From a virus, in IMG/VR virus record IMGVR_UViG_3300037502_001639, positions 1 through 24,776 of that record: DNA of 24,776 nt, one strand, 5' to 3'. Below are positions 6,304 through 19,850 of this stretch, one piece after another (the stretch's first letter is position 1; every line of letters begins with the position of its first letter). The notes under the pieces were generated by a model. That model was given only the letters and a program-made list of their open reading frames with translations. It was not told the origin of the DNA and did not search any database. The position numbers and the translations under genes were made by a program.

Positions 6304-7697
6304 CAGGTGATCTTGGCAAGTCCTCGGCGGGTTGGCAGCATCTCTAGTTTGAGATCAAACTTCTGCACAGCATCTTTGATGCCTTCGATATCTCGGTTGG
6401 CGTCGTCCGCTATGATGCAGCCGCCTTTGGCGAGAAAAGGAAAACACTCTTCGATGCTGTATCGACGAGCTTGCGTCCCCGGTGGGCCATCAACAACAAT
6501 CGTGTCAAACAGCCCTTCCACTGAGGACAGGTCGTAGAAACCGTTCGGTTTGATCGGGGCAGTCAGAAACTTTGCGTGTTGGCTCTTGACCCTCTCTCTT
6601 GCCGCAGCGGAATAGACAGGCATGTGGTCGATGCTGACAACTTCCATTGCCCCTTCAAGAAGAGCTTCGGTTCCTTTCGCCGATCCTGTTCCAAGTTCGA
6701 GGCATCTTCCGGTCGCGTGGGCTTTGAGGAAGTGGACCGCCGCAGGTTCGAGTGTGGCTCCCCCTGTGTCTTTGGCAAACTGGATCGGCTTCATGGTAGC
6801 CAGAAACTCGAAGAGTTCATCGTCCGTCCTTCGCTTGCAGTGGCGGTTGAAGTAGTCTCGGTCTCGAATGGCGCTTGCGTCGTTCAAGGCGCGTTTGCCG
6901 GTAGCCAATCCATCTAGTGACTCTAGCCAAGGGGCCATCACGGCCTCAAAGCCTCCCTTGCTCAAAACGGTCATGTAGGAATGCCACAGGTTGTTGGCTG
7001 GATGGACGAGGTTGTTGTACTTGTAGTTTATCGTCGCGGAATTTCTTGACGGGTGCTTGTCTCCGAAGAACTCGTGGCCAAGACACAGGCTTTCGTCAAG
7101 GTCAACAGGCACCCGTGCCATGAAGGCCCGGAGGGATGCACCTCTTTCCTGAGAACCGTGGCGTCCAGTATAGTTGTTCCAACCACCGATTTTCAGATAC
7201 GTCTGTCTTGACATGCACAGCCCAACTCCGACCCCGTAATTCGGTTCATCCTTCGAGAAGGCATACTGATGCCCGTTGGTAGGGAGCATCAACGTTCGGT
7301 TCGGGTAAAAGTCCTTGTCGCTCGCTTCTACGCGCTTTGGCTTCCAGTCCTCGTCGTAGTAGATGTTCGCCAGCGTAGGGCAAACGATCCTTTCGTCATC
7401 AGCAACCTGAGCTGCATACGAGCGCAAGTCACCGCGCTCAACAGACTGGTGGGCATCGACCCACATCAAGACATCACCTGTAGAGACAGAAGTAGCTGCC
7501 AGCTTGGCTTTCCCGCATCCGACAGGAGAAATTCCTTTGACCACCCTGACTTTCGCCGGTAGATCGTCGCAAGATCCATCTGTAGTCGCGTCCGAGTAGA
7601 CGACGATTTCATCCGCCCCTGCCTCGAGAAAACTATCACATGTTGATCTGACTCGTTTGCCTTCGTTGAACGTGTTGATGATGACGCTGAGTTTCAC
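6288..7697 (-). CDS. Glycosyltransferase (GT-A, GalNAc-transferase-like DxH) fused to SAM methyltransferase
   Basis: This is a 469-aa two-domain enzyme. Residues 1-240 form a family-2/GT-A glycosyltransferase: [10 protein letters not shown] (4-13), YSDATTDG (34-41) and MWVDAHQS (78-85). The D81-x-H83 replaces the usual DxD. D-x-H, a later Gly-His (LGHEF, H208) and an acidic/Arg stretch before it ([13 protein letters not shown], 180-192) follow the order seen in polypeptide GalNAc-transferases, where Asp, His and a distal His bind Mn. Residues about 325-465 form a class I methyltransferase: [12 protein letters not shown] (332-343), acidic SIDH (355-358), and [16 protein letters not shown] (397-412). 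The start is a GTG inside a GTGA overlap with the mucin-like gene, so translation is coupled. The 3' end overlaps the terminase gene by 16 bases. The likely acceptor is a virion glycan or protein; sugar and target are not known. Confidence 0.88.
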
Positions 7698-8119
7698 GGA
7701 GGTGGTGTCGGTGTCGGAGTCGGTGGAGGTGTAGGAGGTGGAGTAGGAGTAGGTGTCGGAGACATCGTAAACGTGAACGTCATTGTAGGCGTCATCGTCG
7801 TTGTCGGCGTCACCGTAGGTGTCATCGTTGGTGTATCTGTCGGGGTCGGAGTATCCGTAGGTGGAGAAGTCATCGTTGGTGTCGATGTCGGAGTAGCCGT
7901 TGGGGTAGGGGTCGGTGTCGGCGTAGGAGTCGGCGGCACGTACACGTACGGCACCGTGTTCAACTCGGTCGTCACTCTGGCCACCGGCTCAGGCTCGATG
8001 ATGACCGTATCGGTCAGCCGGCTGCGGTTGGCGATGATGCCAGAGGTCCCTTGCGTCCACGGACGGGAAAGGAACAGGCTCTCCTCGGGGCCGTAGTCGC
8101 CTTGGATGGTTCGGATCAT
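7694..8119 (-). CDS. Mucin-like Pro/Thr-rich putative virion protein
   Basis: This is a 141-aa protein. Residues 1-60 form a compact-looking N-terminal domain ([19 protein letters not shown], then [16 protein letters not shown]). Residues 62-141 are almost pure Pro/Thr: about 35 Thr and 31 Pro of 80, mostly PT dipeptides with inserted Met, Ser, Asp, Val and Phe. There is no signal peptide or membrane segment. Such an extended, hydroxyl-rich stalk is the classical acceptor type for O-glycosylation. The gene's stop codon overlaps the GTG start of the glycosyltransferase-methyltransferase fusion by 4 nt. It starts 2 nt after the 269-aa structural-type gene ends, so it is made with late virion proteins. 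Role as a surface spike, stalk or decoration is inference; a plain PT linker is the alternative. Confidence 0.85.
7697..7936 (-). repeat. Low-complexity Pro/Thr-coding DNA tract
   Basis: The plus strand is built from GTCGG, GGTGT and GGAGT-like hexamer variants, encoding PT dipeptides on the minus strand. The units vary at wobble positions, so selection on the protein is likely, but the tract is still prone to slippage and length change in multiples of six bases. Confidence 0.85.
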
Positions 8120-8121
8120 GG

Positions 8122-8931
8122 TCAGTTCTCGATGGATTCACCACGCAGCGGCGGGTAGATCGTCACCTTCTCGCGGAGCCACAGACCCTTCTGGGGCTGC
8201 ACTACGTCCTCAATGACGAACGGACGCCAGTCCTCGAAGTTGGTCGCCGGGAAGACTTGACCCTTCGGAGTGCCGGCACGAGTGACGTTCACGGCCCCGG
8301 CGTTGAAGACGATCTGGGCACCTGGCACCAGCTCTGGCAGCACAATGCGTGGGTGAAGGCACTTGGGGAAGTTGACCGACAGGCCGAGGTAGGAACCATC
8401 GACCTCGGTGGGGATGGGCTGCGGGTGCAGGAGAACCTGCGGATTCCACGGCACCTCGGAGAGGTACTGCTGTACCTTGATGCGGCTGTCCACGCTCACC
8501 GAGGGGCGGTACTTCTGACGGGCAAAATAGCGGGTCGCCGTGGAGATGGCATCAGAACCTGTCGCTGTGGACTGCGGAAAGGTCGAGGAGATGAAGTACA
8601 GATCCTCCAGCACCGGAGGCCACGCATATTGACGGCTGGAATAGAAGGACTCGAATGGCGTGTTCCGCTCCGTCTCAGTGCGAACACGGGCGAAGTAAAG
8701 GTGCTTGAACCCTGCATCCGCCTGTTCGCAGTAGGTGTACACGTAGTCGCCAAACTCAGCCACACGCTCATGCCGGACTGCGAAGCTGACCTCCTTGTAG
8801 GGGAGGTAGCGAGTCAGCTTGCCGCTCGGTTGGAGGGCAAGCTGCTGGTTGATGATGTAGTCCGGCACGCGGATCCGAATCGTGAACTCGGTCGGGTCCG
8901 GCGTGGCGATGAGGTCAAAGTCGGAGGGCAT
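8122..8931 (-). CDS. Putative virion structural protein, unknown family
   Basis: This is a 269-aa protein beginning [20 protein letters not shown]. It looks like a soluble mixed alpha/beta protein with many aromatic residues ([52 protein letters not shown]). A Pro-rich middle ([14 protein letters not shown]) and a C-terminal beta-like part ([28 protein letters not shown]) follow. There is no membrane segment, signal peptide or recognisable active site. Its start ATG shares one base with the stop codon of the 245-aa gene (TAATG) and it ends 2 nt before the mucin-like gene, so these three are tightly coupled. By context it is probably a tail or head-surface protein; no homology is claimed. Confidence 0.75.
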
Positions 8932-9668
8932 TACAGTTCAGGCTTGACGTTGCCGAAGCCAATCACCAGAGCCTTGCGCAGGTAGACATGCTGTGTCTCG
9001 TCACCGACGACGCAGGTAACGTCCCAGACCGCTTCGTAATACGACAGCTGTCGTGGTGCGAAGTGGTCGAGTTCGTCGCTGGTGGTCAGACGAGTGGTGG
9101 AGTAGGTCGGAACGACCGAGGTGGCAACAGCTTCGGCACCTCCTCCCCCAGTGCTGGCCAGTTTGTTCCACTCGATCTCCATCTCGCTGTTCGGGATGGC
9201 AACAATACCATCCGCTGCAAAGACGCCGGAAGTAGCAAGGGTGAATCCAGGGTCGTCAACTCCTTCGGCGGGTCGGCTTTTCTCAATGCCAAGAGCCGCA
9301 GTGCTGGTCGTGAACAGGTCTCGGTAGGTGCCAGAGTCGAAGCGGCAAAGCTCGTAGTCGGCAGCGGAGACGCCGTGGAAAGCCACATTGACTGTGGTTC
9401 CAGCTTGCAGCACCGGGCGGTCAAGGACCACAACCGAGTTGGTGGTGAAGCCAGCCACCCTGGCACCTGCCGGAACGCCGGGGCCGAAAGCATAATGGCC
9501 GACGAGGAGACCAGTGGTCGAACCGACACTTGTCAGCACGGGGCTGCCTGCCGTAGTCGTGGCCGTGGTCTGGAGAACTAGGGTCGGGTGAAGATCGACT
9601 GACTGGATGTCCGTGACTCCGGTCAGCGGTACTACAGCCCCGTTGGTCAAATACGCGAAAATTTCCAT
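8931..9668 (-). CDS. Putative virion surface protein with Gly/Thr beta module
   Basis: This is a 245-aa protein. Residues about 34-97 form a Thr/Gly/Val module with the pattern TTTAGSPVLTSV, TTGLLVGHYAFG, PAGARVAG and NSVVVLDRP. A similar beta-strand unit (T-x-G-S-x-x-L-T, then G-x-x-V/A-x-G-x-G-V-P-x-G-T/A-x-V) is common in phage and viral surface proteins from environmental sequences; I recall the pattern but cannot search it. The rest is a mixed domain with a long acidic/Ser/Thr middle (AEGVDDPGFTLATSGVFAAD) and an aromatic C-terminal part (ELDHFAPRQLSYYEAVWDV). No enzyme motif is seen. It overlaps the next gene by one base and follows the small zincin gene by 12 nt. It probably belongs to the tail or capsid surface. 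Confidence 0.75.
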   Translation of the reverse strand: MEIFAYLTNGAVVPLTGVTDIQSVDLHPTLVLQTTATTTAGSPVLTSVGSTTGLLVGHYAFGPGVPAGARVAGFTTNSVVVLDRPVLQAGTTVNVAFHGVSAADYELCRFDSGTYRDLFTTSTAALGIEKSRPAEGVDDPGFTLATSGVFAADGIVAIPNSEMEIEWNKLASTGGGGAEAVATSVVPTYSTTRLTTSDELDHFAPRQLSYYEAVWDVTCVVGDETQHVYLRKALVIGFGNVKPEL

Positions 9669-9680
9669 GGTGTCGAAAGA

Positions 9681-9944
9681 CTACTTGCGTGCTGGTAGGG
9701 TGTCAAGCGTCCTGACGCCGTGCTTCCACAAGAACTTCGATAGGATCTCCGCCTCGGCTGTGACGTGCTCCTCGGTCCAGTGCTGGTGTCGTTCATGCAA
9801 CATTTCGTGAATGAGTACCTCCAGACGGCGACGACCCTTGAGCCTCGGGTCGATCTCGATCTTGCCGTTCGGCCACCACAACCCCTCGGCCTGATGCCGA
9901 CCCAGTTTGCGCTCTACGACTACTGGCAGTTTTGACTTGCTCAT
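9681..9944 (-). CDS. Small HExxH zincin-like metalloprotease
   Basis: This is an 87-aa protein with the zinc motif HEMLH (residues 46-50) in the context LEVLIHEMLHERHQH. A downstream acidic/His helix (EEHVTAEAEILSKFLW, about 58-73) could supply the third ligand. Upstream is a typical strand-turn (GKIEIDPRLKGRRRLEVLI). This minimal layout matches the short SprT/ImmA-like zincins often found in phages, which lack a transmembrane segment and secretion signal and so act inside the cell or virion. The gene begins in an ATGA overlap with the winged-helix-like gene. The substrate is unknown; pairing with a DNA-binding-like partner recalls regulator-protease pairs, but a head-maturation or host-takeover role is equally possible. 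Confidence 0.8.
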   Translation of the reverse strand: MSKSKLPVVVERKLGRHQAEGLWWPNGKIEIDPRLKGRRRLEVLIHEMLHERHQHWTEEHVTAEAEILSKFLWKHGVRTLDTLPARK

Positions 9945-10225
9945 TTGATGATGCGGTAGTGGTGGGTAGCGTGTTTGACCCCATCGCTGCGTGGGATATG
10001 AAACTTTTTCGCCTCAATCGTCCCGTTCTTGAGAGCTTGGGCGATGTACTGCTGAGTGGCAAACCTCTTTCGGTTAATGAGTTTCTGAACATCTTCCCTG
10101 GTCAACCACTCTGGGCCGGGAGATTCCGATATTTCTTGGGCGTTGAGTGCGGCAAGCCAATCAGAAGGACTTGAACCCGGTTGGAACGTGCCAGCGGCCG
10201 TTGATTTCTTGGACTTGGTGGACAT
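9941..10225 (-). CDS. Small winged-helix-like DNA-binding protein
   Basis: From the ATG at 10225 the product is 94 aa. The first 40 residues are a Ser/Lys/Ala-rich tail. The C-terminal part, PEWLTREDVQKLINRKR, then TQQYIAQALKNGTIEAKKF and a basic HHYRIIK end, has the helix-turn-helix plus wing spacing of small phage winged-helix proteins. An upstream in-frame ATG at 10243 would add six residues. Either start lies inside the 3' end of the metallophosphoesterase gene in another frame, so 65 or 83 bases code twice. The stop overlaps the zincin start (ATGA). A regulatory or DNA-modifying accessory role is inferred from the fold only; identification is tentative. Confidence 0.7.
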   Translation of the reverse strand: MSTKSKKSTAAGTFQPGSSPSDWLAALNAQEISESPGPEWLTREDVQKLINRKRFATQQYIAQALKNGTIEAKKFHIPRSDGVKHATHHYRIIK

Positions 10226-10892
10226 TGAATGAACCGTCTTCATGGATTAGACCCATCGCGAACCCGCAGCCGTGACGCAGCGTGCCCGGATAGCGGGAGT
10301 TGTAGGGTTGATCGACGTTCAGCAAGCCGCCGACGCCGTATGCTGTTTTGCGTTCGTTGAAGGTACCGAAAGAGGCTGAGTCGGTAGCATGGCAATGACC
10401 ATAGACACAGTTGCCGTAAACCATTGCGTGTTGTTTGGCAGCATTCGCTCCCGAGAAATACCCATGCAAAAAGTTTAGCTTACCGAACGTGAATAAACCG
10501 AGCCTCTTATGGTAAGGTTTCCATTCGCAGCGAAGTTTTCGGAGTGTGTTCTCAAACTCGCTGGCCAGTCTGGCCGCATACTCCGCCTTGATTCCGGCGG
10601 TGCTGCTCTCAGCAAGCTGAAAAAGACGGTCATCATGGTTACCCAGTAACAGCTTCGAGGGCCGCCACGAGTGAAGAAACTCCATTCCCGCCTCCCAGTC
10701 CTCCTGCATCGAGAGAGATTGCTCCTCAGCAGTCGCTCCTTTGCGCAAAGCCGCCAAGTCTAGAAGGTCGCCGCCATATATGCGCAGGTCGGCCCTAAAG
10801 TCTTTGGTCACGTCCTTCAATACCTGAACAGCACGAGCGTTCTGGTGATGGCCGTGCAAGTCGCTTGCGAAAATGAACCGGATGGGCTTCAT
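10161..10892 (-). CDS. Calcineurin-like metallophosphoesterase
   Basis: This 243-aa enzyme contains all the metal-binding motifs of the calcineurin-like phosphoesterase superfamily in order: SDLHGH (D11, H13), GGDLLD (40-45), LLGNHD (82-87), a single His in FLHGYF (H143) and GHCH (165-168). It is soluble, without signal peptide or membrane segment. The family hydrolyses phosphomonoesters or phosphodiesters, including nucleic acids and cyclic nucleotides; the substrate here cannot be read from the sequence. Its start is in an ATGA overlap with the HNH gene stop. Its last 65 bases or so are shared with the start of the winged-helix-like gene. Association with the HNH nuclease suggests DNA or nucleotide processing late in infection, as an inference. 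Confidence 0.92.
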   Translation of the reverse strand: MKPIRFIFASDLHGHHQNARAVQVLKDVTKDFRADLRIYGGDLLDLAALRKGATAEEQSLSMQEDWEAGMEFLHSWRPSKLLLGNHDDRLFQLAESSTAGIKAEYAARLASEFENTLRKLRCEWKPYHKRLGLFTFGKLNFLHGYFSGANAAKQHAMVYGNCVYGHCHATDSASFGTFNERKTAYGVGGLLNVDQPYNSRYPGTLRHGCGFAMGLIHEDGSFNVHQVQEINGRWHVPTGFKSF

Positions 10893-11581
10893 GCGTTTTC
10901 TCGTTTGAGTTCGTGAGGCATCTTAGCCCATTTTGCCCTGTTATCGGAAGCCCAGAGAGGCTGAAGGTTCAAGTGATGGCAGAGAGCTACGAGATCTTCT
11001 GCGGTTTTTGCGGAGGCAAGAGGGATGATGTGATCGACGTGCCAATCGCCATAGTTTTCCCACGACATACCTGGCTGAAACTGCGCTTCAATGTGCGCCT
11101 TTGTTTCGGCAACCGTTGCGCCGAGTATGTTCTCCGTGTCTGAAAGTTTTTTTGCGTTTGCGCGACGGAAGGCATTGTATATTCTTGACCTTAATCGGCA
11201 CGAAAGTTTATAATTTGGGTTAGTTGCCGCCCTTTTTTCTTTCGACTTGCGTATAATATTGCGTACGCGATCGGGGTTTTCACGCCTCCACTTCCTATTT
11301 TCTTCACACTTTTTATCTGGGTTTGCTTTTACCCTCTTGCGCTCACTCTCACGCACCTTGTCTGGGTTTGCTTTTTTCCACTTGCGATTATTCTCTAGTA
11401 TCTTGACGGAGTTAAGCCCCCTCCATTTGCGGTTAGCTTCTTTCGCGCCTTTCATCTTCCGGTCAAATTTTTCCTGATCGAGCCAATACTCTCTCGATCC
11501 TTGATGGTAGCCCCAAAACACTCTCCCGTCCTGACGAACGTCACCTCTCTTGAATCTCACCGTGGCTTCTGGTTCACTCAT
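10889..11581 (-). CDS. HNH homing-type endonuclease with basic 15-residue repeats
   Basis: This is a 230-aa protein. The C-terminal HNH nuclease domain shows DWHVDHIIPLAS (179-190, D183-H184) followed by CHHLNLQPLWASDNRAK (201-217), the expected His-Asn-Asn/His arrangement. The N-terminal part opens with DGRVFWGYHQGSREYW (18-33), a pattern I associate with phage HNH proteins. Residues about 50-124 are a strongly basic array of 15-residue units of the type NRKW-x-x-x-NPD-K/R-V-R, probably a DNA-contacting helix array. The DNA of this gene, especially about 11160-11480, is much richer in A/T than its neighbours, which suggests recent arrival. It sits by ATGA overlaps between endolysin and phosphoesterase. 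It could be a free-standing homing nuclease or take part in packaging cleavage. Confidence 0.9.
   Translation of the reverse strand: MSEPEATVRFKRGDVRQDGRVFWGYHQGSREYWLDQEKFDRKMKGAKEANRKWRGLNSVKILENNRKWKKANPDKVRESERKRVKANPDKKCEENRKWRRENPDRVRNIIRKSKEKRAATNPNYKLSCRLRSRIYNAFRRANAKKLSDTENILGATVAETKAHIEAQFQPGMSWENYGDWHVDHIIPLASAKTAEDLVALCHHLNLQPLWASDNRAKWAKMPHELKRENA
11210..11434 (-). repeat. 15-codon tandem repeats inside the HNH gene
   Basis: About five units of 45 bases encode degenerate copies of NRKW(K/R)xxNPD(K/R)VRx. At DNA level the 15-mer TCTGGGTTTGCTTTT recurs at 11316-11330 and 11361-11375, exactly one unit apart, showing recent duplication of at least two units. Confidence 0.8.
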
Positions 11582-12126
11582 GCAGTCAAAACTCTGGATA
11601 GGGCTTCGCAGGCTTCGGCCCGCAGTTTAGGGTCTGTCATCTTCTTGAAGTCGTCAGGGTTGTCAATGAACCCGATCTCCAAGAGGAAGCACGGCTGAAA
11701 CGCCATGACGGCAAGGCGGCTATGCTGGGAAGCCCCTTCTGTCTTCACACCACGGTCTTTCGTGTCGAGAGTTTTGACGACGGCAGTGTTGATCTGCTCC
11801 GCCTTGGCCTTGTGCTGATCGCCACGGTAGAACGTCTCCGTGCCACTGGCCGATCCATTGAAAGCATTGCAATGTAGCGACAGCATGATGTCACCGTCAT
11901 ATTCCTTAGCGATGCCCGCACGTTCTCCAACAGGAGCTGGGTCAGAAGCATTGATGCGAGTGCGGATGACCTTGTGGCCAGCACTACGGAGGAAAGCGCG
12001 AATCTCGTTCGCCCAGTCCATGACAATCTCTGCCTCCGTAACCTTGTCGATGCCGACCGCGCCGGGGTCATAGACCCCTGAGCGACGGTTGCTCATCCCA
12101 TGGCCGGGGTCGAGGATGACGGTCAT
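11578..12126 (-). CDS. Endolysin: N-acetylmuramoyl-L-alanine amidase (Amidase_3)
   Basis: This 182-aa single-domain enzyme cleaves the amide bond between N-acetylmuramic acid and L-alanine in peptidoglycan, releasing progeny phage. The zinc and catalytic motifs of the AmiC/Amidase_3 family are present: ILDPGHG (H9), KVTEAEIV with E31 or E33, MLSLHCNA (H85) and FLLEIGFIDN (E150). There is no signal peptide and no separate cell-wall-binding domain, so it would need the holin for release. The gene begins in a 4-nt overlap with the holin-like gene and ends in an ATGA overlap with the HNH gene. The single catalytic domain is usual for endolysins of phages of Gram-negative hosts. Confidence 0.95.
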   Translation of the reverse strand: MTVILDPGHGMSNRRSGVYDPGAVGIDKVTEAEIVMDWANEIRAFLRSAGHKVIRTRINASDPAPVGERAGIAKEYDGDIMLSLHCNAFNGSASGTETFYRGDQHKAKAEQINTAVVKTLDTKDRGVKTEGASQHSRLAVMAFQPCFLLEIGFIDNPDDFKKMTDPKLRAEACEALSRVLTA

Positions 12127-12804: not shown

Positions 12805-13181
12805 GAGAGGATTTCGGTTCGGCGTTCGTCGGAAATGATAGCAAGGTTGACCAGCGCCGTCAATCCTTGAACGACCCGTGGGTCGTCCGAAAGGACTTGC
12901 GAACGCCAGCCGGAAAGGAGGAATCGGAGAGCGGCGATGGTCGGGTCTGTGGAGAGGCCAATCTTCGCCATCTCCTCCAGGGTGAACTCGGAGATGAAGG
13001 CTTCGACATCCGGCCACGACTTCGGCGGATTCTGCTGGCGGTCCCACTCGGCCTGAGCGTCTTCGCGGGTAGCGTCCAGCTCCTCCTGAGTCGGAGGTGG
13101 CAGACCGTCGTCGAAGGTGATCTGGTCGCCAACCTGCTTGGCGAACCGTTGCATGAATGCGCAGTGGAAAAGATACGTCAT
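12801..13181 (-). CDS. Tail-fibre-adjacent protein, possible assembly chaperone
   Basis: This is a 126-aa protein starting at the ATG at 13181, which overlaps the tail-fibre stop (ATGA); an ATG-less extension to 13199 is less likely. The N-terminus is hydrophobic/aromatic (MTYLFHCAFMQRF). A charged helical middle rich in Asp, Glu and Gln follows. The C-terminal half contains DPTIAALRFLLSGWRSQVL, DDPRVVQGLTALV and an acidic/basic end (SDERRTEILS). Small proteins encoded directly after a long fibre are often trimerisation or assembly chaperones. I recall similar small proteins behind fibres in environmental phages but cannot verify homology, so this is positional inference. Confidence 0.7.
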   Translation of the reverse strand: MTYLFHCAFMQRFAKQVGDQITFDDGLPPPTQEELDATREDAQAEWDRQQNPPKSWPDVEAFISEFTLEEMAKIGLSTDPTIAALRFLLSGWRSQVLSDDPRVVQGLTALVNLAIISDERRTEILS

Positions 13182-16100
13182 GTGGTCACGACCTCCCAAG
13201 TGATGAAGCTGTTGGCCTTGAATGTCACGGTGCCGACTACAGCGGTTTCAACCTTGCCTTGAAGCTGAACCGTTCCCGAGTTCGACCCGTTGCGGAACAG
13301 GATGGTGCCGATGGCGGGGCGGGCGGTGGCACCCCCGGCGTTGACGTTGCTACCAATCGAACCGTAGGAGGTCGAGTCAGTGATGGTGATTGACTCCGCA
13401 GTCGCCGAGTTCCAAAGACTGACGAGCGAAAAGTAGTTGGTCGGACTCGCCGGACCGTTCAAACCAATTTCATAGCCCGTCGAGGTCGCGCTCGTCGTAA
13501 CGCTGAAGTTGATGCGGATGAGGTAGGCCGTGTTCGCGGCAGCGGTAAACGACATCCCGGTGATGTCTTGGAAGACGCTGTTGTTGGTGATGGCGACATC
13601 GCTGGCGACCTGTTCGTAGGTCGCGCCACCGCCGCCACCCGTCGCGGACAACGTGGTTCCGCTCATGCTCAGGCCAGAGCCAATCGTGATCTCTTCTGGG
13701 TCGCCCGAACCGCTGGCGGAGCCTCGGCCAAGAAGACGGCTCGCCGCCGAGACATCCTGCATCTTGGCGTAGGTCACGACCCCGTTGTCAATGGTCCAGA
13801 CGGTGCCGGAGCCGGAGACCGTGATGTCGCCCTTGTCGCCGTCGGAAATGCCACCGCCGCCACTGGCCGCGATGGTGATGGAATCGGTCGAGGCGTCTGT
13901 GGTAATGGTGATATTGCTGCCCGCCACCAGCGTCAAGGTGTCGGTGGTGGTGTCGGCCACGACGTTCGACTGCCCAGAAACCGCAATGGTCTGGAAGATG
14001 TTCTGGTCGCCCGTGTTGGTGCCGGTGATGGCATCGAGTTTGGACGCATACGCCGTCGTCATCAGGCCATCCTGAGATGCCGAAGCATCGCGGATTTTGT
14101 CCGTGCCGCCCGTGACATGGGTAGAGGCATGGGCCGTTGGGGCGCGGGCATTAGAGAGACGCCCATCGTTGGCCTGCACTGCGAGGCCCGCCGTCGTCTC
14201 ACCGTCCGTGGCCAGTTCGACGGCACCTTTGACCGTGGTGCTGGCGTCGGGGACGTTGACGGTCGGATTGCCGCTCACGCCGTCGCCATTGCTGACCGAC
14301 ACGTTTGTGCCCGCCGCCACCGACCGAGCCACAGCGGTTCCGCTGCCTGTCCGAACCACGATGCCATTGGAGCCGGGGTCCACCACCGGAGTTGCTCCGT
14401 TGGAAGCAGCGGTGATGCGGCCCTTGGAGTCCACCGTCAGACTGGTGTTTGTGTAGCTGCCGGGAGAGACGGCGGTGTTGGCCAAGGTCGCGGCCTGACT
14501 TCCATTCCCCGGTCCTGCGGTTACATCGCCTGTAAGCTGGGTGATGCCTGTGTCGGTGACGGTGACTGCCAAGGTCGTGCCCGTCATGGACAGGCCAGTG
14601 CCAAGCGTAATTTCCTGCGGGTCGCCAGAACCCGAATCGCCTCGTCCAATCAGCTTGGAGGCGGCGGACACATCCTGCATTTTTGCATAGCTGACTGCGT
14701 TATTGGCGATGGTCAGCGCACCTGTGCTGGCGAGTGTGGCGTCGCCGGACACGGCCTTGTTCTCAAAGACTCCCGTGGAGCCACCGGAGGTAGCAACCAA
14801 AATGTTGCCAGTTGTCAGGCTGGTGATGGTCACTCCCTCATCGTCCTTGATGTTGGAGCCGTAGGTCGGACGGACGAACAGAGTGCCGTTGCTGGGGTGT
14901 GCGTTGACGACCGCGCAGACCTGAATGCGCGGATTCGGGGCGGCGGGGGCGGTATCCGTCAAGCTCCCGGTCGTCGTCCCAGCGTAGATGATCTCACCGT
15001 TGGTCCAAGTCTGCGAGTAATTACCACCGTTGGTCTGGATGCCGCGCAGTTTGCCGAAGGCGATGACGAAGCCTTCCTCGTCGTTGAGGAGCTGCTCGGC
15101 GGTCAGCCCCATGAAATAGGTGCTGGGGCCAGTGCCGTTCCAAAGCTGAATGAGGAGCTTGCCGCTGCTTCCGTCCGTTCCGGCGAACATCACCGGAACG
15201 CCTTTGGCAATAGTGCTGCCGGTTTGGTTCTTGACATGGTAGAGCAGATGCTCGCCCGTGTGCATGATGAAACCGTTGAGCTGAATGTCCAAGGTCTCCT
15301 CGTCGATGTTCCACGCCATCTGGCCCTGAGAAGCCAACGTGGCTGGCGTGGCCGTGTCCATCTGGATAGAGTTCACTCCGGCGATGTCGCCAGCGTCCGT
15401 GATGGTGACGACCGAGTTCTGGATGAGCTTGCCAGTGGTGGTGTCAAATCGAGCCACGGCCTCATCGGTTGCAGACGCGGGGCCAACAACGTCGCCCGTG
15501 CCGCCGCCAGTAGCCGACAGCGTGGTGCCGCTCATCGACAGTCCCGATCCAATGGTGATTTCTTCGACATTGCCTGCGCCACCGGCACTCCCGCGCCCAA
15601 GCAACTTCGATGCCGCCGAGACGTTCTGCATCTTGGCGTAGGTAACTGCGTCATTGGCAATCGTGGCCGTTTGACTTCCGTTACCGGGTCCGGCAGTCAC
15701 ATCGCCGGTCAGTTGAGTGATGCCAGTGTCGGCGGGGATGTCGGAAAGCAGGGCAATCGTGCCGCTGGCATCGGGCAGGGAAATGGCTTGGTCAGTGGTT
15801 GCGCTGCCAGTCAAGGTTGTGCGCGTGCCAACAACGCCAAGCTCAATCGAGCCAGTTCCGCGTGTGCTGATGCTGCCACCGCCATCATAGGTCTCAATCG
15901 AACCGCCCGCGAGCGCACCGCCTTGGGTTGAGATGCTGCCGCCGTTTGCGTCGCCGCCATAGGTGTAGATGTTCCCGCCGTTACCACCGTTGTTGCTTGC
16001 GTTGCCGTTTGCGCCACTGGTGTTGATGTAGCCTGCGGAACCGCCATTGCCACTGCCGCCGATTTCACCATTGCCGCCAGTGAGAACTAGGATGCCGCCT

Positions 16101-17638
16101 GTGCCCCCAACGCCTGTTCCACTGCTGGTAGAACCGTTGCCTCCTCTGGCTTGCACGTTTCCGCCCGCTCCTCCGGTGGTATCTTCGTCCGAGCCATCGG
16201 GCCAAAACAGGGCGTCACCAACCACTTTTCCACCCCAAGCCTGCACAGTGCTGCCGCCAGTGCCCGACGCAAGAATCACTGCGCCGTCCACAGAGCCAGT
16301 GGAACCGCCAATGCCCGAGGGGAGCACGTGGAATCCTTTGGTTCCGCCGCTGTCGGTGCCGTAATACTGGGAGTTTCCGGGAGAAGTCGAATCTCCAGAC
16401 AGCTTGAGGCCGCTGGTATCGCTGGTGATGGACTGCTGCGTTTTCGCCGAGGCGGTGAGCGCCTGCCCAGTCAGCGTGAAGTCAATGGTGTTGGAGTCTG
16501 TGACCGTGACATCTCCCGTATTCGTCCCGGTGCTGGTGCCGCTGCCACTCGGGTAGAGAGTGTCGAAATAGGTCTTGAGGGTGGCCTTGATGTTGGCCCA
16601 AGAGACCTTCTTGAGGATGTTGGACGCGGCACTGTCCAAGATGGGCACCACATCCGCGTCAATCGGCGTCGTTTTGGCGGTGCTTCCGTTGATGGCCGAA
16701 CCAACATTCTGCGCGTCGGTCACATCCGCACCCGCCTCGATGCCGTCCAACTTGGAGGCGTAGGCGGTGGTCATCAGACCGTCCACAGACGCGGTGGCAT
16801 CACGAATCTTGTCGGTGCCGCCAGTAACGTGCGTTCCAGCGTGAGCGGTCGGCGTGCGTGCGTCCGAAAGTCGGGTGTCGCTTGCCTGCACGGCCAGCCC
16901 TGCGGTCGTTTCGGCGCTGGTGGCCAACTCAACCGCACCCTTGGTGCTGGTCGAAGCATCGGGCACGTTGACAGTCGGGTTGCCGCTGACTCCATCCCCG
17001 TTGGTGATAGAGACGTTGGTTCCCGCGGCAATGCTGCGGGCTGTCGTCGTGTTCAGCGCGGTGCGCACCACGATGCCATTGGAGCCGGGGTCAATCAGAC
17101 CAGCCGGAGGAGCCAAGTCAGCGATGTCCTGCGCGGTGGTCTTTTTGAGGGTGCCCGCGTCGTTGATGAGGACTTCCTCTGTGCCAACGAGTGTGGGCTT
17201 GTTCGTCTTGCCCGAGATGGCACTGGCTTGAATCGTCGCGGCTTGGCTACCATTGCCGGGTCCGGCAGCAACGTCGCCCGTGAGCTGCGTGATGCCGTTG
17301 TCGGTGCCGTTGGCAATCGAAGTCACGCGACCCTTGGAGTCCACCGTGACGTTGGCGTTGGTGTAGGCACCGGGAGTAACCGCCGTGTTGGCCAGCGTCA
17401 CAGTGCCGTTGGAAGCCAAAGTGGCATCGCCCGAGACATTTTCCCAAGCGGTGTCGTAGTTGGTCCCCGACTGCTTGATGAGGATCTCACCGGTCGATCC
17501 GCCAGACGGCACGCCGGGTCCAGGAACCAAGGTAGGACTGATCTCAATCGTCCGAACCGCCTGATCGGGGTTGGTGACGATGACCTTGGCCGGACCCGGC
17601 TCAGGTGGACGGATGATGAGTTTTACAGGGCTGCTCAC
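13178..17638 (-). CDS. Long repeat-rich tail fibre / receptor-binding protein
   Basis: This is a 1486-aa modular fibre. It starts at a GTG in a GTGA overlap with the upstream stop. Three kinds of internal repeat occur: ITQLTGDV-x-AGPGNGSQ (from residues 116, 640, 1032), a block of about 118 residues from DPGSNGIVVRT to AYASKLD (183-300, 1087-1203), and YAKMQ(D/N)VSAAS(K/R)L(L/I)GRG units (667, 984, 1290). Residues about 488-600 are Gly-rich, probably a parallel beta or polyglycine-type structure. Residues about 773-938 (LYHVKNQTGSTIAKGVPVMF, GFVIAFGKLRGIQTNGG) form a compact domain of a type frequent in phage fibres. The C-terminal 150 residues (YEQVASDVAITNN onward) look like a globular tip. 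The YAKMQ repeat is typical of phage fibre shafts. It would bind the host surface. Confidence 0.92.
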   Translation of the reverse strand: MSSPVKLIIRPPEPGPAKVIVTNPDQAVRTIEISPTLVPGPGVPSGGSTGEILIKQSGTNYDTAWENVSGDATLASNGTVTLANTAVTPGAYTNANVTVDSKGRVTSIANGTDNGITQLTGDVAAGPGNGSQAATIQASAISGKTNKPTLVGTEEVLINDAGTLKKTTAQDIADLAPPAGLIDPGSNGIVVRTALNTTTARSIAAGTNVSITNGDGVSGNPTVNVPDASTSTKGAVELATSAETTAGLAVQASDTRLSDARTPTAHAGTHVTGGTDKIRDATASVDGLMTTAYASKLDGIEAGADVTDAQNVGSAINGSTAKTTPIDADVVPILDSAASNILKKVSWANIKATLKTYFDTLYPSGSGTSTGTNTGDVTVTDSNTIDFTLTGQALTASAKTQQSITSDTSGLKLSGDSTSPGNSQYYGTDSGGTKGFHVLPSGIGGSTGSVDGAVILASGTGGSTVQAWGGKVVGDALFWPDGSDEDTTGGAGGNVQARGGNGSTSSGTGVGGTGGILVLTGGNGEIGGSGNGGSAGYINTSGANGNASNNGGNGGNIYTYGGDANGGSISTQGGALAGGSIETYDGGGSISTRGTGSIELGVVGTRTTLTGSATTDQAISLPDASGTIALLSDIPADTGITQLTGDVTAGPGNGSQTATIANDAVTYAKMQNVSAASKLLGRGSAGGAGNVEEITIGSGLSMSGTTLSATGGGTGDVVGPASATDEAVARFDTTTGKLIQNSVVTITDAGDIAGVNSIQMDTATPATLASQGQMAWNIDEETLDIQLNGFIMHTGEHLLYHVKNQTGSTIAKGVPVMFAGTDGSSGKLLIQLWNGTGPSTYFMGLTAEQLLNDEEGFVIAFGKLRGIQTNGGNYSQTWTNGEIIYAGTTTGSLTDTAPAAPNPRIQVCAVVNAHPSNGTLFVRPTYGSNIKDDEGVTITSLTTGNILVATSGGSTGVFENKAVSGDATLASTGALTIANNAVSYAKMQDVSAASKLIGRGDSGSGDPQEITLGTGLSMTGTTLAVTVTDTGITQLTGDVTAGPGNGSQAATLANTAVSPGSYTNTSLTVDSKGRITAASNGATPVVDPGSNGIVVRTGSGTAVARSVAAGTNVSVSNGDGVSGNPTVNVPDASTTVKGAVELATDGETTAGLAVQANDGRLSNARAPTAHASTHVTGGTDKIRDASASQDGLMTTAYASKLDAITGTNTGDQNIFQTIAVSGQSNVVADTTTDTLTLVAGSNITITTDASTDSITIAASGGGGISDGDKGDITVSGSGTVWTIDNGVVTYAKMQDVSAASRLLGRGSASGSGDPEEITIGSGLSMSGTTLSATGGGGGATYEQVASDVAITNNSVFQDITGMSFTAAANTAYLIRINFSVTTSATSTGYEIGLNGPASPTNYFSLVSLWNSATAESITITDSTSYGSIGSNVNAGGATARPAIGTILFRNGSNSGTVQLQGKVETAVVGTVTFKANSFITWEVVTT
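13631..13771 (-). repeat. YAKMQ fibre-shaft unit, copy 3
   Basis: Residues 1290-1336, YAKMQDVSAASRLLGRG to TTLSATGGG. It is the last shaft unit before the C-terminal tip domain. Confidence 0.82.
14030..14380 (-). repeat. Fibre long repeat, copy 2
   Basis: This encodes residues 1087-1203, the second copy of the unit found at 16739-17092. It is one residue shorter (the TALNTTT segment becomes TGSGTAV) and is preceded, like copy 1, by an ITQLTGDV unit and a TVDSKGR(V/I)T segment. The duplicated block is therefore longer, about residues 78-300 versus 1045-1203. Confidence 0.85.
14561..14689 (-). repeat. YAKMQ fibre-shaft unit, copy 2
   Basis: Residues 984-1026, YAKMQDVSAASKLIGRG to GTTLAVT; the most diverged copy. 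It is followed by the third ITQLTGDV unit at 14483-14545. Confidence 0.82.
15500..15640 (-). repeat. YAKMQ fibre-shaft unit, copy 1
   Basis: Residues 667-713, YAKMQNVSAASKLLGRG to SGTTLSATGGG. The preceding ITQLTGDV unit lies at 15659-15721. Confidence 0.82.
16739..17092 (-). repeat. Fibre long repeat, copy 1
   Basis: This encodes residues 183-300 of the fibre, from DPGSNGIVVRT through KGAVELAT and GTHVTGGTDKIRDA to MTTAYASKLD. It matches copy 2 at 14030-14380 nearly residue for residue while differing at many third codon positions, so the copies are old or kept similar by protein-level selection. Confidence 0.88.
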
Positions 17639-17994
17639 GACTGGGTGTAGTTGTTGACGACCTTGACCTTGGCGGTCACGACGGGAGGAAGTCGAAGGCT
17701 CGCTGGGGCAGGGCTGGTCAACACCACGTCGTAGCCATACTCGCCGATGGCCAGAGCCGTTGTGTCAACATCGGTCTTGGCAATCTGGTAGGTGCCGGTA
17801 GCCGCGCTGACCCACGAGATGCCCATTGTGAAGGCCAAGGGTGAATCAGGCGTCTTACGGGCGTCGGCGTCAATGCTGTAGCCCGTGTAGTCAATGCCTT
17901 CGCCATTGGCGTCACAAAGCTGATACTGCGTGGCAACGAAGTCGATGCCACGAATGAAGGTAATGTCGGCTTTGGCGGGGGTCGAGCAGGCCAT
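17635..17994 (-). CDS. Small beta-rich fibre-proximal structural protein
   Basis: This is a 119-aa protein. It opens MACSTPAKADITFIRGIDFV; then come CDANGEGIDYTGYSIDADAR and SWVSAATGTYQIA, and it closes with a strand-rich end (VTAKVKVVNN). The pattern (an R-G-x-D/T-F strand, then D-x-x-G-x-x-I-D-x-T-G-Y, then G-T-Y) resembles the small immunoglobulin-like or BppU N-terminal-like domains that phages place next to fibres, where they attach receptor-binding proteins to the tail. That resemblance is from memory. Its stop overlaps the fibre GTG start, so the two are made together. It starts 2 nt after the tiny paralogue gene. Confidence 0.75.
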   Translation of the reverse strand: MACSTPAKADITFIRGIDFVATQYQLCDANGEGIDYTGYSIDADARKTPDSPLAFTMGISWVSAATGTYQIAKTDVDTTALAIGEYGYDVVLTSPAPASLRLPPVVTAKVKVVNNYTQS

Positions 17995-17996
17995 GG

Positions 17997-18101
17997 TCAG
18001 GGTGCCGGGTTAAGGGCAAGGGCGGCAAGGCGAATAGCATTCCACATCTGCATTGCTGAGACGTTCTGCGGAGGGAGAGTGGTGAAAGCGGTCGAGGACA
18101 T
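17997..18101 (-). CDS. Tiny protein (34 aa), paralogue of the 67-aa neighbour
   Basis: The frame runs from the ATG at 18101 to TGA at 17997-17999. The product opens MSSTAFTTLPPQNVSAMQMW, continues NAIRLAALALN and ends in a Pro/Ala tail. It matches the first half of the upstream 67-aa protein at MSS(D/T)AFTTLPP and MQM(L/W)NA(V/I)R(V/L)AA. It is tightly packed: 5 nt after the neighbour's stop and 2 nt before the next start, which supports a real gene. The helix MQMWNAIRLAAL is amphipathic. No function is known; a small minor virion or assembly peptide is possible. Confidence 0.65.
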   Translation of the reverse strand: MSSTAFTTLPPQNVSAMQMWNAIRLAALALNPAP

Positions 18102-18106
18102 GAGTG

Positions 18107-18310
18107 TCAGGATTGAAGTTCACCGTCGAGGGCGAGGCGGATGGCATTGAGCATCTGCATCGTGCTAATCTGTTGCGGAACCAAAACTTTGAACGGATCA
18201 TAGGTGATGGCTCCAGGATGGTTGGCGTTGACAGCCGCAACCCGAACAGCGTTGAGCATCTGCATCAGGTTGCTGGTCGGAGGTAGTGTGGTGAAAGCGT
18301 CGGAGGACAT
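18107..18310 (-). CDS. Small protein (67 aa) with internal MQMLNA repeat
   Basis: This is a small protein with two copies of one helix motif: LMQMLNAVRVAAV (about 15-27) and TMQMLNAIRLAL (about 50-61). They are linked by a segment with NHPGAITYDPFKVLVP. The 34-aa gene just downstream carries a third copy. The N-terminus MSSDAFTTLPP is shared with that paralogue. It has no signal peptide, enzyme motif or membrane segment. It lies between the acidic capsid-proximal gene and the fibre-proximal genes, so a minor structural or assembly role is possible. I do not recognise the family. Confidence 0.72.
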   Translation of the reverse strand: MSSDAFTTLPPTSNLMQMLNAVRVAAVNANHPGAITYDPFKVLVPQQISTMQMLNAIRLALDGELQS

Positions 18311-18322
18311 GGCAGTGTGAGG

Positions 18323-18595
18323 TTACATCTGCATCGGGACACCACGGCGGCGGGCCTTGGCGTACATGCCCTCGTCTTCTTCCTCTTCCTCTTCGCCGGC
18401 TTCGATCTTGATTTCCATCTCAGCGCCTTCGGATTCTTCATCGCTCATCGCGGAGACATCAGCGCCGTCGATCTGGATGAGAGTCAGGGTGCCGTCGCCG
18501 TTGTCTTGGAAAGTGCCGACAGCTTGAAACTCACCGCCGACCTCGGCGTCAGGGGGCATCTCGAAGCCCTCGGGGATCTCAAATTTCAGTTCCAT
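18323..18595 (-). CDS. Small acidic capsid-proximal protein
   Basis: This is a 90-aa protein. Its N-terminal part, MELKFEIPEGFEMPPDAEVG with a later FQDNGDGTLTLIQIDGADV, looks like a small beta domain. A very acidic stretch follows (about 51-75, including a run of six Glu), then a basic tail ARRRGVPMQM. Small proteins opening with the pattern (M)-x-L-K-x-E-(I/L)-P-E-G-F are common next to major capsid genes in environmental phages, as I recall; the role there is not known to me. It is the first gene after the capsid gene, separated by the hairpin at 18623-18658. A decoration, scaffolding-like or head-completion role is conceivable. Confidence 0.75.
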   Translation of the reverse strand: MELKFEIPEGFEMPPDAEVGGEFQAVGTFQDNGDGTLTLIQIDGADVSAMSDEESEGAEMEIKIEAGEEEEEEDEGMYAKARRRGVPMQM

Positions 18596-18674: not shown

Positions 18675-19850
18675 TTAGGAGCAGGTGGAGTCAACCGTCC
18701 AGCTCAGCGGGCAGCGACGGAAGCGGATGACCGCACCATACTCGGGGATCACCGGCTGGGCACCGTAGCCAAGGATGCCTCGGAAGTAGCCGATGTTTTC
18801 ATCGGGGTTGCACTCGAGGTCATACTTGTTGATCCACTTGAAGTTGCCGAGGTAGTCCTGAGCCGGGAAGTTCATCGGGCCAGCGCGGAGAGCCGCACCG
18901 GGGATGGCGAACTTCACGACCTGATTGCTACCGATCACGAGGTCTTCGTACTCGGCCGTGTAGTAGGCCGGGTTCACGGAGGCGGCGTCACCGGCAGAGG
19001 TGGCCGGCAGGTAGTAGGGGACTCGGACCCAGCTACCACCGGTCAGATTCCAGCGGGCAGCCTGCATGTCGATGTGGTGCTTGAAGCCTTCAAGGTTCAC
19101 GAAGGAACCACGAGGGCCAAGCAGTTTGTCGACGCTGTTCGACCAACGGATGTTGTTGATCGTCGAGTCGTTGTTGACGAGGGTAGCCTGGGCTTCGCGG
19201 CTCAGGATGAGCGGCAGAACCGGCTGACCATACTCGTTGCGGGCGAGGCCGTTGTTCATGTGGGCACCGTCACCGACCAGCTTGTCGTACCAGTAGTCAA
19301 GCATCTCACGGGTGATCTGGCCAATAGTGCCAGTGCCGAAGGTGCTCGCGCCGGTCGTCATGCTGGCGTCAGCGATGGCCTTGTTGGTGGTCATCGAGGT
19401 GAACTCGTCGCGGCGGGCGTTCTGCCAAGCGTGACGGGTGTTGTGCTGAAGATTGCGCAGAACGTGCTCGGCCTGCTGGGCGATGTTCCAGCTCATGCGG
19501 CCATCTTCAATACAGATTTTCTCCGACTGAATGGCGGCCTTCTTGAGGGACATGCTCAGACGGCGAGTGGACTGGTAAACCGTAGCGGTGGTCGGGGTGC
19601 AGGAACCGCCGCCATCACCAGCGCCACCATCGTTGAACGAGACGGTCTGGAACTGAACCAGATTCGTCAGCGGCATCGAGCGGTCGTAGATGATGAAGTT
19701 CGGGGTTTCGCCCATTCCGTCTTCCCAGACGGTCTTCGGCACGATGTCGTTCGTGTCCCACGGGGTGGTGATCCAGCCCTTTTCGGAAGTCTCCTTGCTG
19801 ATGCGGTTTGCTTCAGTCTCGAAGAAGTTGTTGATGTCGGTACAAGCCAT
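18675..19850 (-). CDS. Major capsid protein (putative)
   Basis: This is a 391-aa protein from the ATG at 19850 (MACTDINNFFETEANRISKE). The frame extends to a GTG at 19922, but those extra residues come from the non-coding leader and are Pro/Ser-rich, so ATG is preferred. Size, lack of catalytic motifs and mixed alpha/beta character suit an HK97-fold coat protein. An N-terminal helical arm is followed by GETPNFIIYDRSMPLTNL, a long helix (IAQQAEHVLRNLQHNTRHAW) and Gly-rich loops. A conserved-looking C-terminal beta part follows (YFRGILGYGAQPVIPEYGA, FRRCPLSWTVD). It lies after portal and scaffold in canonical order, has its own leader and is followed by a hairpin, fitting high expression. The assignment rests on order and architecture. 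Confidence 0.88.
   Translation of the reverse strand: MACTDINNFFETEANRISKETSEKGWITTPWDTNDIVPKTVWEDGMGETPNFIIYDRSMPLTNLVQFQTVSFNDGGAGDGGGSCTPTTATVYQSTRRLSMSLKKAAIQSEKICIEDGRMSWNIAQQAEHVLRNLQHNTRHAWQNARRDEFTSMTTNKAIADASMTTGASTFGTGTIGQITREMLDYWYDKLVGDGAHMNNGLARNEYGQPVLPLILSREAQATLVNNDSTINNIRWSNSVDKLLGPRGSFVNLEGFKHHIDMQAARWNLTGGSWVRVPYYLPATSAGDAASVNPAYYTAEYEDLVIGSNQVVKFAIPGAALRAGPMNFPAQDYLGNFKWINKYDLECNPDENIGYFRGILGYGAQPVIPEYGAVIRFRRCPLSWTVDSTCS

Follow-up and report, generated by a model that had tools for sequence, protein, structure and literature searches.

Two small genes that share a tag

The stretch of DNA analyzed here (the window) is a virus record of 24,776 bases in which two very small genes lie side by side on the minus strand. 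In minus-strand order, the region encodes a portal candidate (768 aa), a 111-aa protein, a scaffold candidate (401 aa), a capsid candidate (390 aa), a 90-aa protein, the 67-aa and 34-aa proteins considered here, a 119-aa protein, and a 1486-aa fiber-like protein. We refer to the 67-aa gene (MSSDAFTTLPPTSNLMQMLNAVRVAAVNANHPGAITYDPFKVLVPQQISTMQMLNAIRLALDGELQS, 18310..18107, minus strand) as type A and to the 34-aa gene (MSSTAFTTLPPQNVSAMQMWNAIRLAALALNPAP, 18101..17997, minus strand) as type B. A preliminary description of this DNA had reported both adjacent frames, their common start MSSxAFTTLPP, and three copies of MQM[LW]NA[VI]R, two of them in the larger frame, and all of these are present. 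It had also spoken of a 12-residue motif; strict identity extends over 8 residues, and the figure of about 12 holds once flanking similarity is counted.

In the window, the repeated unit, which we call the tag, reads LPP-x(2-3)-S-x-MQM-[LW]-N-A-[IV]-R. The type A protein carries it twice, at residues 9-28 (LPPTSNLMQMLNAVRVAAVN, 18227..18286, minus strand) and 42-63 (VLVPQQISTMQMLNAIRLALDG, 18122..18187, minus strand), with a linker, NxNHPGxITYDP, between the copies and GxxQS at the end. The type B protein, which stands alone in the window, is a single tag (residues 8-28, TLPPQNVSAMQMWNAIRLAAL, 18018..18080, minus strand) and nothing more. The motif HMM scores these three copies at 36, 39, and 45 bits, respectively, with each window copy being part of its seed. 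The AF2 model of type A is a helix-linker-helix with helices at residues 15-30 and 50-61 (mean pLDDT, 72.8), and the linker is strongly conserved in a 15-row alignment of type A homologs. A Foldseek search with this model found no PDB fold match (best E value, 1.9), and the tag helices are no more amphipathic than shuffled sequences.

The portal, scaffold, and capsid candidates take their labels from gene order only. Searches of PHROG, Pfam, and PDB sequences gave no significant match for any of them (nothing usable for the portal candidate in the PDB search), tblastn of the window capsid against an isolated-phage collection gave none at a limit of E 0.01, and an AlphaFold2 model of the capsid candidate (18675..19850, minus strand; 390 aa from ACTDINN) was discarded as unusable at a pLDDT of 30. 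Relatives of this capsid candidate are 57 to 100% identical to each other. Between it and the type A gene lies the gene for an acidic 90-aa protein (18323..18595, minus strand), a homolog of which forms the left border of a swapped cassette in relatives.

Directly downstream of type B, the 119-aa protein (17635..17994, minus strand) matches PHROG 1084 (unknown; E 4.8e-15) and PHROG 3304 (L-shaped tail fiber protein assembly; E 3.1e-10). Its family was found in 23 of 28 records and has three weak matches in Streptomyces phages (E 3e-3) in the isolated-phage collection; weak matches of its alignment to a plant receptor, Lsm3, and a glutamate receptor in the PDB were taken as chance. The 1486-aa protein that follows (13178..17638, minus strand) contains DUF5907 repeats (Pfam PF19264; E 3.2e-27) and has no match in PHROG. 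Elsewhere in the window, the 141-aa product of positions 7694-8119 (minus strand) includes a long PTPTPT-type repeat. Just 1 of 16 gene starts in the window is preceded by a Shine-Dalgarno-like GGAG, GAGG, or AGGA, which suggests a host that uses this signal little.

Conservation and distribution of the tag

Is the resemblance among the three copies real, and are the genes that carry them maintained? The local alignment score of the 34-aa protein against either half of the 67-aa protein was reached by 0 of 20,000 shuffles in each case, and that of the N-half against the C-half by 1 of 20,000; the similarity of the window copies is beyond chance. A close relative is L003, a 62-kb contig with a capsid candidate 87 to 88% identical to that of the window. 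Both frames are kept there, 84% and 88% identical to their window counterparts, so that disruption of the 34-aa frame, named at the outset as the observation that would count against a real gene, was not seen. Substitutions between the two genomes fall mostly in the third codon position (6/3/20 over the three positions in the 34-aa gene and 5/4/33 in the 67-aa gene), and pN/pS is 0.16 for the 34-aa gene and 0.125 for the 67-aa gene, the synonymous sites being close to saturated; the values for the capsid, 119-aa, and 90-aa genes are 0.20 to 0.24. For the stand-alone type B genes of L052 and L054, the value is 0.30. Both window frames thus bear signs of purifying selection, and relaxed selection on stand-alone type B was not seen in these two short pairwise comparisons (window/L003 and L052/L054). 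Together, the shuffles and pN/pS support the original view of a duplicated family of tiny coding genes.

Relatives were gathered by scans of viral contigs. A tag profile seeded solely with the copies from the window, L003, L008, and L040 also detected the tag in L019, L050, L052, L054, L064, L100, L105, and L109 types; the cutoff was set by inspection, with genuine tags scoring at least 13.4 bits, against 11.3 for the best of the remaining matches. Across this wider family, the core of the tag is QTL-x-x-PPP-V-[SD], followed by the helix. MQM is confined to the window and L003 among the relatives examined, and MQM-x-NA-x-R, offered in the preliminary description as the family motif, is a signature of the window lineage. 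The N-terminal tag of type A and the tag of type B co-vary within genomes (P = 0.0013 for all 10; P = 0.0101 when a single member stands for the window pair), and without the window and L003 the relationship is not significant (P = 0.096); the co-variation is significant only through the window lineage.

By whole-record search with a separate alignment, type A occurs in 26 of 35 related records, and type B occurs in 25 of those 26. The nine records without type A are L037 (70.8 kb), L014, L020 (whose contig stops right after the capsid region), and six records from distant groups. Our protein listing, from 29 contigs plus the window, holds 27 type A and 25 type B proteins. Against the isolated-phage collection, the window 67-aa protein had no tblastn match (limit E 10), and the L109 67-aa protein had one, at E 8. 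A Frankia match was rejected, with clear sharing limited to PGxITYDPL within a 313-aa protein of a different kind.

Other arrangements occupy the corresponding place in some relatives. In L037 (capsid 65% identical), which has neither A nor B nor the 119-aa family, a 190-aa protein with a Gly-rich stretch (7487-8059) lies at the A/B position. In five distant relatives (L027, L031, L033, L035, and L036; capsid 24 to 28% identical), another small duplicated pair, two tandem paralogs of about 107 to 117 aa (MSASYAANDEHVIANALAQAMGK.. and MAVPYSAPHQQITSNAIAQFMGK..), lies behind the capsid relative.

Type B at the N terminus of exchangeable bodies

Type B is usually part of a larger protein: 19 of 25 type B proteins are fused to bodies of 100 to 383 aa (14 measured), with the tag N-terminal to the body and often joined to it through a Gly-rich linker. 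In every one of the 25, fused or not, no more than about 10 residues separate the likely start from the beginning of the tag. The body in L050 is a Phage Tail Collar domain (PF07484; E 6.5e-25) that also matches tail PHROGs, body modules in L097 are 75 to 90% identical to parts of the large fibers of relatives, and L064 and L008 have a body module in common (35% identity). The body in L101 matches a "virion structural protein" classed under head and packaging (E 9.7e-07). Most bodies besides the collar have weak or no profile matches in PHROG and Pfam, and the type B proteins of L105 and L119 returned nothing usable from a PDB sequence search. The collar domain and the large-fiber modules are themselves of fiber type, and the bodies may bind host receptors.

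In five L105-type phages, the tags are identical at 27 of 27 positions and the bodies are 22 to 72% identical; L101 compared with the other four keeps 27 of 27 with bodies at 22 to 26%. L064 and L019 agree at 25 of 27 tag positions with bodies at 13%, as do L111 and L019, and L050 and L119 have the tag and the start of the linker in common and a different body. As far as these alignments can tell, the type B peptide is conserved while its body diverges or is swapped.

The remaining six type B proteins, of three sequence types with the window among them, are the tag alone, counted from the likely start: 34 aa in the window, 31-32 aa in L047, L048, L052, and L054, and within the overall range of 31-34 aa in L003. 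In a post hoc comparison, stand-alone type B accompanies large downstream fibers (1486, 1264, 1225, 1387, 1607, and 916 aa, with the 1264 aa counted from an upstream TTG and the 916-aa fiber truncated where its contig ends), whereas the fibers that go with fused type B are shorter (431-1069 aa among those read) or absent.

Several pairs of relatives amount to natural experiments. The DNA flanking the locus is 97 to 99% identical between L041 and L047, and the stretch behind a 98-103-aa gene has been replaced: L041 has type A and a type B fiber (6683-8781), and L047 has a 31-aa type B, the 119-aa protein, a 1225-aa fiber, a 132-aa protein, and type A (6698-11497; both in coordinates of joined stretches). 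Each cassette holds one A and one B. The 119-aa family is found nowhere in the 58 and 53 kb of L040 and L041, and no other large fiber appeared in the stretch read. Farther along in L041 (9792-11804) is a 670-aa phosphoesterase-like protein interrupted by an insertion that starts CFTGDARVMTPFGF and, judging by its motifs, is intein-like. L014 lacks both A and B (its sequence at 11711/11733 matches L025 at 10988/12179, with flanks conserved), and L102 keeps A with B reduced to MAGVP, which breaks the one-A-one-B rule. Given that L014 lost both genes and L037 has neither, A and B are dispensable for such virions.

A proposed role for the tag and its alternatives

In total, these observations are consistent with a model, to which we give somewhat better than even odds, in which the tag is a modular docking element that mounts fiber-like proteins on the virion, with type A as a double tag and the 34-aa gene as a tag that lacks a body. 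The unit of 20-25 residues (a PP or PPP turn and then a helix) would be the docking tag of the fiber apparatus; we read it as the virion-docking end because the N-terminal segment stays fixed while the bodies swap, as in certain Klebsiella phages. Most likely the type B tag anchors its body at a fixed virion site, and type A, with two tags on one short chain, probably occupies or bridges neighboring sites of the same kind, as a clip or partner for B. The bare type B of the window probably fills sockets as a plug or aids the formation of the tag assembly, and host recognition would be left to the separate 119-aa protein and 1486-aa fiber. The two window genes are probably pieces of a host-attachment apparatus pared down to little more than a mounting peg. 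Virion binding by the tag, its partner protein, the clip and plug roles, and host-receptor binding by the bodies are what we infer. With its whole family missing from L040 and L041, the 119-aa protein is ruled out as a general socket; that role would instead fall to a conserved virion protein.

Could type A instead be an assembly helper, a chaperone or trimerization partner for B, so that the tags never hold fibers on the virion? Small accessory genes next to fibers often encode chaperones, A adjoins B in most genomes, and A was lost together with B in L014. However, A is built of B's own N-terminal tag, which would be unusual for a chaperone, and it persists in the window, L003, L047, L048, L052, and L054, where B has no body to fold; we regard this explanation as unlikely.

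The position of the genes raises a second alternative, that A and B are capsid decoration proteins whose tag sits on a repeated head site and whose fused bodies are head fibers. The preliminary description placed the pair between capsid and fiber genes. By position this stands, and a single gene separates the capsid candidate from the A/B genes in the window, L003, L008, L040, L050, and L054 types; a set of three tags in each genome would fit a repeated lattice, and T5 pb10 likewise joins a helical capsid-binding domain to an exposed domain (PMC5292684). However, profile searches do not identify the 390-aa protein as a capsid, and adjacency to it is not conserved: in L011-type phages the A/B pair lies behind fiber genes, and in L047 and L048 the 67-aa gene is about 4.5 kb away. 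The body matches, except that of L101, are of tail rather than head type, the genes move with the fiber cassette, and neither a PHROG or Pfam match nor a PDB fold match for the type A model pointed to head decoration. The stable association of the tag genes is with the fiber cassette rather than with the capsid gene, and we consider a decoration role improbable.

A third possibility concerns the stand-alone gene, which might be the decaying remnant of a fiber gene that lost its body. Collinearity between L052 and L050, whose capsids are 93% identical, breaks only at B, where the collar-body stretch present in L050 is missing from L052; L102 shows that B can decay, and KpV767 provides a precedent (PMC6872550). 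Such decay is doubtful here, given that the stand-alone forms, of three sequence types, all have clean ends at 31-34 aa and that pN/pS is low both for the window and L003, where synonymous sites are near saturation, and for L052 and L054. Finally, the idea that the 34-aa frame serves as a leader for translational coupling to the 119-aa gene, with an irrelevant peptide, is very improbable: the type B stop overlaps the next start as ATGA in L047, L048, L052, L054, and the fused L050, and the gap is 2 bases in the window, but it is 25 bases in L003, and conservation extends to the peptide sequence, which has homology to A and to fiber N termini.

Returning to the docking tag, we tentatively entertain, as a possibility rather than an expectation, a socketed platform made from one tag, with A as the clip and B as the peg in equivalent sockets, the peg either carrying a swappable body or serving as a bare 31-34-aa plug that would keep the site filled while a different fiber does the binding. 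If this were true, free docking pegs would form a class of genes kept for their own sake. The docking model, if right, would explain a family without a Pfam or PHROG match, would reveal natural exchange of fiber cassettes among near-identical phages, and would supply a natural peg of very small size by which proteins could be mounted on phage particles. More generally, a gene of only 31-34 aa in the structural region of a phage can be genuine and under constraint.

Comparison with known systems

The proposed arrangement is like T5 pb10 in that a small helical segment would hold an exposed domain on the virion, and unlike it in that pb10 is encoded by one gene, has an Ig-like domain, and binds capsid hexamers, whereas the bodies here are fiber-like and exchangeable (PMC5292684). 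No PHROG or Pfam relation to the phi29 head fiber was detected for the tag proteins. The phi29 head fiber gene is positioned near head genes. The likeness lies in a fiber protein encoded close to head genes, and the difference lies in the phi29 fibers themselves, which are a long helical coiled coil (PMC7602432).

The closest parallel comes from KP32-, KP34-, and Menlow-type Klebsiella phages, in which a "conserved peptide" at the N terminus of secondary receptor-binding proteins has been proposed to attach to a branching domain; in KP32 group A it is 29 aa long, and it is conserved among related phages while the rest of the protein diverges; the hepta- and undecapeptides of K1E, K1-5, and SP6 phages are a related case (PMC6872550). 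The second receptor-binding protein of KpV767, truncated to 69 aa with the peptide retained, was read by its describers as retrograde evolution (PMC6872550). Both the attachment principle and a truncated peptide-bearing protein are thus already known. The tag resembles the Klebsiella peptide by analogy, as a short fixed N-terminal segment with a divergent body, rather than by sequence comparison. Unlike the Klebsiella peptides as described there, it also exists in duplicate within a dedicated 67-aa protein, present in 26 of 35 records, and as a stand-alone gene of 31-34 aa that occurs in three sequence types and shows signs of purifying selection. As far as our searches of the literature go, which were by topic rather than by motif letters, the double-tag protein and the stand-alone tag gene appear to be new.
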